A DNA stretch of 32,280 bases, taken from Vicinamibacterales bacterium (lineage in GTDB: Bacteria > Acidobacteriota > Vicinamibacteria > Vicinamibacterales > UBA8438). How positions within the stretch are numbered: the first letter of the stretch is position 1; every line of letters starts with the position of its first letter. The position numbers and the translations under genes were made by a program. Below the pieces are notes generated by a model. That model was not told where the DNA came from, searched no databases, and was given only the letters and a program-made list of their open reading frames with translations. Below are positions 22,001-24,137 of this stretch, piece by piece. Location: positions 41,164 to 73,443 of the forward strand of contig JAPYUM010000012.1 in the NCBI GenBank assembly GCA_029940535.1, given 5' to 3'.

Positions 22001-23803
22001 CTAACGGGGGAGTTCGGCCTGGACGAACACGTGGTGCTGCTGACCGAGGTCCTGGGCTGACGGCGTGATGATGGTGCCTTCGCCGACGGTAATGCGCCGA
22101 TGGTCCCGTAGCGCCTGACGCACGTCGTCTTCACACACGAAATCGACCGCCACGTCCACCTCGGGGACCACGGACGTGCCAGCGGTGGTGCTCGCCACCG
22201 GTGTGACCGGGGGGGGAGCCGGGACCGGCGCCGTGGCGGAGGGGGTGATGGTCGGCGCGGCCGCAAGACTTGGTGGCGAAGCCTCCGAGGTGGCGGCGAT
22301 GCCGCGCGAGGCCAGGAACGTCTCGATTCGCCCCGAGAGCAGCGCCGGGTCGATGCCGCCGCGCTTCGGTTTGGATGGGGCCTCGGGGAGGCGAGGTCCC
22401 TCGGGAGAGTCGGCTGCGGGTGCGACGGGCGCTCGGGCCGGCCGGATCCCGTAGGCCAGTCGCTTCGTGTTCAGGAGATGTCGCGGAGTGATGTTGTCGG
22501 AGGTGATGTTACCGCCGTGTCCGCCGCAGCCGAGCGTCATTGATGGATCGAGCCCGGTGGTCATCCCGATCGAGCCGAGCGTGGTCGGGGTGTTCACCAC
22601 GATGCGGAACGCCGATTTCTTGAGGCCGAATTCGAGGATGACCTGTTCATCCTGCGAGTGGATCGACATCGTGTGTCCCATCCCGCCGTATCGAAGAATC
22701 TCCTGGCATCGGCTGCACGCCTCGTGCCAGTCCGCCACCACGTAGAACGAGAGGACGGGGCAGAGCTTCTCCATGGAGAGGGGATACTCGCGCCCAACGC
22801 CATCCAGCGGGGCAAGGAGCACCCGGGTGTCAGCCGGGACGTGGATGTCGACTCGGCCCGCAATCTCCAACGCCGTGCGACCGACCAGCTCCGGGTTCGG
22901 TAGGCGGTCCGCGGTGACCAAGGTCGCGGCCAGACGCTCGGCTTCAGCCGGGCTGAGAAAATAGCCGCCTTGTCGTTCGAATTCTCGACGCGCCTCGCCG
23001 GAAATGACCTCGTCGACGACAACGGAGTTCTCCGATGAACAGAGCACTCCGTTGTCGAACGTCTTCCCGGTGATGATGTCAGCCACGGCCTTGGCCAGAT
23101 CGGCGGTGCGCTCGACATAGGCGGGTGCGTTCCCGGGACCGACCCCGTAGGCCGGCTTGCCGGCGCTATAGGCGGCGCGGACCAGGGCCAGTCCCCCGGT
23201 CGCCAGGATGAGGGCCACCTCGCGGCGGCGCATCAGTTCCTGGGTACCTTCGAGCGTAATCGTGGTCATGCAACTGATCGACCCGTCCGGCGCACCAGCC
23301 GCCGTGGCGGCTTCGGTCATCACTTCCGCGACGCGTCGGATCGAGCGAACCGCGGACGGATGTGGGCTCAACACCACGGCACAGCGCGCCTTCAGACAGA
23401 CCAGCAGTTTGTAGATGGCGGTCGACGTGGGGTTGGTCGACGGGACGATGGCGGCGACGACGCCGAACGGTTCGGCGATATCCACCACCCGCACGTCGTC
23501 GTGCCGGGCGATGACGCCGACCGTGCGCATGGGCCTGATGAAGCGGTAAATGGTGTCGGCCGCGAACAGGTTCTTCTGGACCTTGTCCGCCTCAAGCCCG
23601 TATCCGGTTTCCTCGACCGCCATCCGGGCGAACGGCCCCGCCTGGGCGGCCGCGGCGCTGGCCATGGCGTCGACGATCCCGTCAATCTGCTCCTGGTTCA
23701 GCTCGGCCAGGCGTGTCTGCGCCGCTTTGGCACGCCGAGCCATTGTGCGGGCCTGCCGGATGGAGTCGAGGTCTCGGTCAGTCTGCGCGACAGAGTCGGC
23801 CAT
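22001..23803 (-). CDS. Microcompartment-type CoA-acylating aldehyde dehydrogenase with long C-terminal extension
   Basis: The protein has 600 residues from the ATG at 23803; a TTG at 23827 would add eight. The catalytic part (about 1-455) resembles EutE/PduP and the AdhE N-terminal domain. Visible motifs are 'IVPSTNPTSTAIYKLLVCLK', 'GVGPGNAPAYVERTAD' and the catalytic cysteine C255 in 'FDNGVLCSSENSVVVDE'. 'GKPAYGVGPGN' and 'LGCGGHGGNITSDNITPRHL' are also family-like. It should convert an aldehyde and CoA to acyl-CoA with NAD+. The last 145 residues are extra. They comprise a Pro/Ala linker, a short amphipathic helix 'DPALLSGRIETFLASRGI', a second low-complexity linker, and a folded-looking tail 'FVCEDDVRQALRD' to 'GTIITPSAQDLGQQ'. 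Helices on linkers often direct enzymes into microcompartments. It lies directly after the BMC-H gene, probably in one operon. Confidence 0.92.
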   Translation of the reverse strand: MADSVAQTDRDLDSIRQARTMARRAKAAQTRLAELNQEQIDGIVDAMASAAAAQAGPFARMAVEETGYGLEADKVQKNLFAADTIYRFIRPMRTVGVIARHDDVRVVDIAEPFGVVAAIVPSTNPTSTAIYKLLVCLKARCAVVLSPHPSAVRSIRRVAEVMTEAATAAGAPDGSISCMTTITLEGTQELMRRREVALILATGGLALVRAAYSAGKPAYGVGPGNAPAYVERTADLAKAVADIITGKTFDNGVLCSSENSVVVDEVISGEARREFERQGGYFLSPAEAERLAATLVTADRLPNPELVGRTALEIAGRVDIHVPADTRVLLAPLDGVGREYPLSMEKLCPVLSFYVVADWHEACSRCQEILRYGGMGHTMSIHSQDEQVILEFGLKKSAFRIVVNTPTTLGSIGMTTGLDPSMTLGCGGHGGNITSDNITPRHLLNTKRLAYGIRPARAPVAPAADSPEGPRLPEAPSKPKRGGIDPALLSGRIETFLASRGIAATSEASPPSLAAAPTITPSATAPVPAPPPVTPVASTTAGTSVVPEVDVAVDFVCEDDVRQALRDHRRITVGEGTIITPSAQDLGQQHHVFVQAELPR

Positions 23804-23858
23804 GGTGGCTGGTGGCCTGGATGGCAAGGAAAATCAAGAACCGCGTGTGCGGGGGGCC

Positions 23859-24137
23859 TTAGTCGCCGTTCGGCAGGATTTTCTCCACCTCGCCGTGCGG
23901 GCGCGGGATCACGTGTACCGACACCAGCTCGCCGACACGGCGGGCCGCGGCCGCCCCGGCATCGGTCGATGCTTTGACCGCGCCGACATCGCCCCGGACG
24001 AACACGGTGACGAACCCGGCTCCGATGTACTCCTTACCGACCAGCACGACGTTGGCCGCTTTGACCATGGCGTCGGCGGCCTCAATGGAACCAACCAGAC
24101 CCTTCGTTTCCACCATGCCGAGCGCTTCGAGGGACAT
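23859..24137 (-). CDS. BMC-H hexameric microcompartment shell protein
   Basis: The 92-residue protein is a single-domain shell protein of the PduA/EutM/CcmK type. The start '[20 protein letters not shown]' is diagnostic, as are '[20 protein letters not shown]' and '[20 protein letters not shown]'. Six copies would form a hexagonal tile; the loop '[10 protein letters not shown]' lines the central pore. GGAG lies 7 nt before the ATG. The acylating aldehyde dehydrogenase follows at 23803 with a 55-nt gap. No pentamer (EutN/CcmL), BMC-T or signature lyase gene is in the window, so other parts of the shell would have to be encoded elsewhere. Confidence 0.96.

Follow-up and report, generated by a model that had tools for sequence, protein, structure and literature searches.

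We propose that a CoA-acylating aldehyde dehydrogenase of an ACI-type BMC carries an assembly tail of two parts, an encapsulation-peptide-type helix and a small EutQ-N-like module, of which the former would probably be directed to the enzyme core and the latter to the shell. The gene lies in the window (the whole 32,280-nucleotide stretch of DNA that was analysed), whose nearest named matches are Vicinamibacterales bacteria (Acidobacteriota).

The minus strand carries a gene for a BMC-H shell protein (23859..24137; Pfam BMC, 9.9e-28) directly upstream of the dehydrogenase gene, which is followed by ComM. The dehydrogenase ORF (22001-23827, minus) has 608 aa, and translation more likely starts from the ATG at 23803 than from the TTG at 23827, as homologue matches mostly start at residues 4-17. 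The best NCBIfam match of the protein is TIGR02518, acetylating acetaldehyde dehydrogenase (2.6e-177, slightly below the curated cut-off), and Pfam Aldedh matches it at 5.8e-26; the catalytic domain is at residues 9-459 (22451..23803). This is followed, all on the minus strand, by a Pro/Ala-rich linker (linker 1, residues 460-492, 22352..22450), the helix DPALLSGRIETFLASRGI (residues 493-510, 22298..22351), a second Pro/Ala-rich, disordered linker (linker 2, residues 511-560, 22148..22297) and a C-terminal module of 44 residues (residues 561-604, 22016..22147) that resembles EutQ-N, EutT-N and TIGR02536-C. FVCEDDVRQALRD begins at residue 563 of the dehydrogenase, and GTIITPSAQDLGQQ lies inside the module. 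The layout of linker, helix, linker and terminal module had been noticed in a first-pass annotation and is borne out by the ORF, by conservation and by AlphaFold2; the tail length of 145 residues given there should read 144 aa (residues 465-608) plus the stop codon (22001-22435). Third-codon-position G+C is 0.59 in the tail (22001-22436) versus 0.82 in the catalytic part.

The helix and the module are under constraint, and the linkers drift. The tails came from two sources, 30 genomes of the order and named public contigs, the latter mostly of Acidobacteriota. Mean pairwise identity among 80 aligned orthologues was 0.66 in the catalytic domain, 0.57 in the module and 0.42 in the helix, with 0.27 and 0.25 in linkers 1 and 2; pooled pN/pS (250 pairs at 80-97% catalytic identity) was 0.18, 0.29, 0.34, 0.64 and 0.79 in the same order. 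The first-pass annotation had named two outcomes that would speak against its reading, namely a helix and tail without conservation, or disorder predicted throughout. Both helix and module turned out to be conserved, and structure prediction of the tail alone gave a confident beta-alpha-beta-alpha-beta module (pLDDT 96-98) and a confident helix (about 91) with linkers of low confidence, so the tail is not disordered throughout. In the full-length AlphaFold2 model, the module scored 92-94, the helix 71-84 and linker 2 about 40, and linker 1 was mostly of low pLDDT. The pN/pS constraint together with the confident AlphaFold2 module rules out a neutral low-complexity extension. Nor is the arrangement, first described as unusual, a one-off: the module is present in 81 of 91 complete homologues, and helix plus module is the normal state across this Acidobacteriota lineage. 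Foldseek and VIA-align searches with the tail model returned no match at E<=0.001 or Z>=5; their best rows, pseudomurein-ligase and IF2/eIF5B fragments, were uninterpretable, and no fold is claimed. The module profile, run against PDB sequences, gave nothing below E 0.26, and weak Pfam matches to E3-binding and Pex14_N (E 0.04-0.13) were taken as chance.

The helix of the window would be an encapsulation peptide (EP), and the basis for this reading is homology and position, not amphipathicity. It occupies the position of the terminal DIAEVVKKVLAEL helix in Clostridia homologues, which stop at a single helix such as ISADDIAEVVKKVLAELGR without the module (L082, L084, L085, L088), and it is a conserved helix on a flexible linker, as are BMC C-terminal encapsulation peptides. 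The word 'amphipathic', first applied to it, is not confirmed for the window's own helix, as its helical moment is not above that of shuffles of its own composition (reached by 68% of them on the Eisenberg scale and by 19% on the Fauchere-Pliska scale); helices at the same place are clearly amphipathic in some Blastocatellia-like (L021, L089) and Clostridia (L085) homologues. Helix and module are separable because four homologues (L075, L097, L101, L104) keep the module without an obvious helix. In Bryobacterales-type orthologues (L092, L094, L099, L103, L114), tandem EP-like helices, VEQYLASKG and VDRFLSGRR, separated by Cys-rich stretches, precede the module.

The resemblance of the last module to EutQ and EutT, raised earlier from motifs, reflects with near certainty a true homology, which by the same profile comparisons includes TIGR02536-C. 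The hhalign probabilities of the ALDH module were 98% with EutQ-N (E 1.8e-13), 96.6% with TIGR02536-C, 96.3% with EutT-N and 96.1% with RpiB-N, against control maxima of 6.3% for 30 windows of the dehydrogenase catalytic domain and 16.4% for 60 column shuffles. Among 37 aligned module members, NCBIfam models matched 35 (TIGR02536, best 2.7e-5), 12 (PduM), 11 (EutQ) and 2 (EutT). The genome profile search found EutQ N-termini, EutT N-termini, EutT-PduL-like fusions and RpiB N-termini, as well as the C-termini of TIGR02536-like proteins with an EP-like starting helix. Across 26 members, the core is approximately [IV]-T-P-x-A-[RK]-[DE], preceded by a D-[VI]-[RK] helix, and only the T and A of T-P-x-A are invariant. 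PduM-C appears to join the family by way of TIGR02536: it matched TIGR02536-C at 96.4% and RpiB-N at 86-88%, and its direct hhalign match to the ALDH module was weak (43%). The PduM sequences used came from plasmid records (L175, L176, L177, L178), found with a PduM query and confirmed by record annotation and by Pfam/NCBIfam (PF15953/TIGR04493); a search of the sampled Gammaproteobacteria genomes found no PduM. In E. coli EutQ, the module lies at residues 4-45 and is followed, near residues 85-97, by an EP-like helix. Residues 6-92 of the same protein match the first 88 positions of the NCBIfam EutA model NF007991 (E 1.6e-9; L117 18306-19004), and a further carrier of the module may exist in EutA or its gene models.

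Several known proteins come close to this architecture, each with a difference. The EutQ N-terminal region of the Eut BMC has the same module and a helical segment on one chain with a flexible stretch between them, but the order is module, helix and cupin on a dedicated linker/kinase, whereas it is enzyme, helix and module in the ALDH; the C-terminal cupin domain of EutQ (PF06249) is absent from the dehydrogenase, in which Aldedh is the sole family found. PduM of the Pdu BMC, in our own reading of its sequence, also joins an encapsulation peptide and the module on one chain, but it is a low-abundance structural protein and not an enzyme. The TIGR02536 ethanolamine utilization protein shares the C-terminal module and has an EP-like N-terminal helix, but its middle domain differs from the ALDH. 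EutT, a cobalamin adenosyltransferase, has this module as its N-terminal part, and no linker role is reported for it. The type I BMC aldehyde dehydrogenases (PMC8217296) are of the same enzyme class and have a C-terminal EP; that paper does not mention EutQ, nor did we find a second C-terminal domain mentioned in it.

The system to which the dehydrogenase belongs is, judging from its gene content, of the published ACI type (Sutter 2021), so that the compartment itself is already known. A second contig of the same genome, C186, encodes one BMC-H, three BMC-P (EutN_CcmL), a class II aldolase (PF00596, 7.3e-49, C186:26977-27876) whose tail ends in the helix-like VRLTYRELTALIADAVNQLR, and a D-2-hydroxyacid dehydrogenase (C186:24632-25768; PF02826, 2.3e-58, and PF00389, 9.8e-27). 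The ALDH and its BMC-H are on contig C128 and the main locus is on C186, which places the AldDh in a satellite locus. The ACI features are therefore present: the PF00596 aldolase with a C-terminal EP-like helix, PF00389/PF02826, the BMC-P triplet with BMC-H, and the satellite AldDh. Both the satellite position of the ACI AldDh and the C-terminal EP on type I AldDh have been described (PMC8217296). Of 44 related genomes, 39 have a BMC-H gene adjoining that of the ALDH orthologue (counted by positions). The source genome shows two single-domain BMC-H and three BMC-P only, with no detectable double-BMC trimer protein, and neither a single-sequence search nor the combined profile found a second copy of the module in it; the copy in the window is the only one detected.

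The module is also borne by other enzymes. Outside the window's own family, other families of the order have an RpiB paralogue with an N-terminal module. In most of the regions examined, its gene adjoins DeoC (TIGR00126, 1.6e-83), which starts with an EP-like helix, and an Hpt-like gene is often nearby. Among 32 such genomes, presence of the RpiB fusion goes together with presence of the ACI dehydrogenase (22/22 versus 1/10; Fisher 3.6e-7, the genomes not being phylogenetically independent). Such DeoC-RpiB satellites were located at L185 8737-10484, L186 8438-9322, L187 7634-8500, L188 8691-10333 and L189 8312-9301, and none was found in the window's own family. This satellite of other families, often with an Hpt-like gene, points to a (deoxy)ribose phosphate derived from nucleosides as a possible substrate of some ACI compartments, yielding acetaldehyde for the ACI dehydrogenase. 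A class II aldolase with an N-terminal module and a C-terminal EP-like helix was seen in two genomes, in a different BMC locus (L257 9798-11489; L256 4407-5879). At E<1e-3, all module matches in 60 relatives belonged to the ACI dehydrogenase, to a co-occurring RpiB or to a BMC locus, one module fragment at a contig end being assigned by position.

Published work on EutQ and PduM bears on what the two parts of the tail might do. In Salmonella EutQ, helices H1/H2 (residues 9-41) are needed for shell attachment and H3/H4 (residues 62-99) bind cargo peptides; EutQ lacking residues 9-41 remains with the cargo, and shell and cargo separate (PMC12487888). The EutQ of Gram-positive Eut operons reportedly has no counterpart of the first helices. 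Pull-down of the BMC-H protein EutM needs the first 100 residues of EutQ (PMC4827028). PduM is needed for full association of core and shell (PMC9132943, PMC12108088), and was still said in a 2025 paper to lack any known sequence homology beyond Pdu compartments (PMC12108088). Within the module family, binding to shell hexamers has been shown for EutQ only (PMC4827028, PMC12487888).

By analogy, we infer shell binding for the module and a linking role between core and shell for the tail. The helix would insert into the condensed core of enzymes, as it would in the Clostridia homologues without the module, and the module would dock on shell hexamers, with the BMC-H encoded next door as the first candidate partner. 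The two flexible linkers could allow one enzyme to span the distance from core to shell, and a separate EutQ or PduM linker may be unnecessary in the source organism. The two parts of EutQ recur in the dehydrogenase tail in reversed order, and this reading, with the helix for the core and the module for the shell, is the most economical. Several findings speak against it. EutQ docks at an EutM/EutL interface, in which EutL is a trimer, and no double-BMC trimer is detectable in the source genome; EutT and RpiB carry the module with no reported linker role; four homologues have it without the helix; and the direct PduM match is weak, as described above.

If the module were instead an adhesive between cargo proteins, binding enzymes or encapsulation peptides and condensing the core with no shell contact, this would agree with its presence on several enzymes (ALDH, RpiB, class II aldolase), with the location of PduM at the core and not at the shell, and with an association of EutQ that is stronger with cargo than with shell (PMC12487888). 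However, the cargo-binding part of EutQ maps to residues 62-99, outside the module (PMC12487888), and we regard this explanation as unlikely. That the module is a domain for regulation or for binding a ligand (nucleotide, CoA or cobalamin), common to EutQ, EutT and the ALDH and unrelated to assembly, seems more doubtful still: EutT handles cobalamin, EutQ has been reported as an acetate kinase and, in the ALDH version of the module, a Cys and a Glu are invariant (FVCED), but the EutQ kinase activity has been assigned to the C-terminal cupin domain (PMC12487888), PduM is structural, and the FVCED Cys is not common to the other module families. That the module is simply a second, redundant encapsulation tag adding targeting strength to the helix is very improbable, even though EutQ 1-99 alone sends GFP to compartments (PMC12487888) and some homologues retain the module only, as the module is a folded domain and not a short helix, and the EutQ region homologous to it acts separately from the cargo-binding helices (PMC12487888).

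The ACI locus, the C-terminal EPs on type I AldDh and EutQ as a linker were already known. In the literature searched, outside of which lie most subscription journals and preprints, we found neither a union of PduM-C, EutQ-N, EutT-N and TIGR02536-C as one domain, nor the module on the ACI dehydrogenase, RpiB or the aldolase, nor an EP-plus-module architecture on an enzyme. A broader proposal, which we place slightly below an even chance, is that PduM, EutQ, EutT, TIGR02536 proteins and several cargo enzymes share a common metabolosome shell-anchoring module, often with an EP on the same chain, and that this is a general core-to-shell linker unrecognised as one family, carried in ACI by the ALDH itself. 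Such a module together with its helix would be a ready-made two-part tag to load and anchor enzymes in engineered shells. The attachment of core to shell in metabolosomes has so far been solved singly, for PduB/PduM and for EutQ; a common module would reduce these cases to one testable mechanism and would offer compartments lacking both EutQ and PduM a candidate linker.
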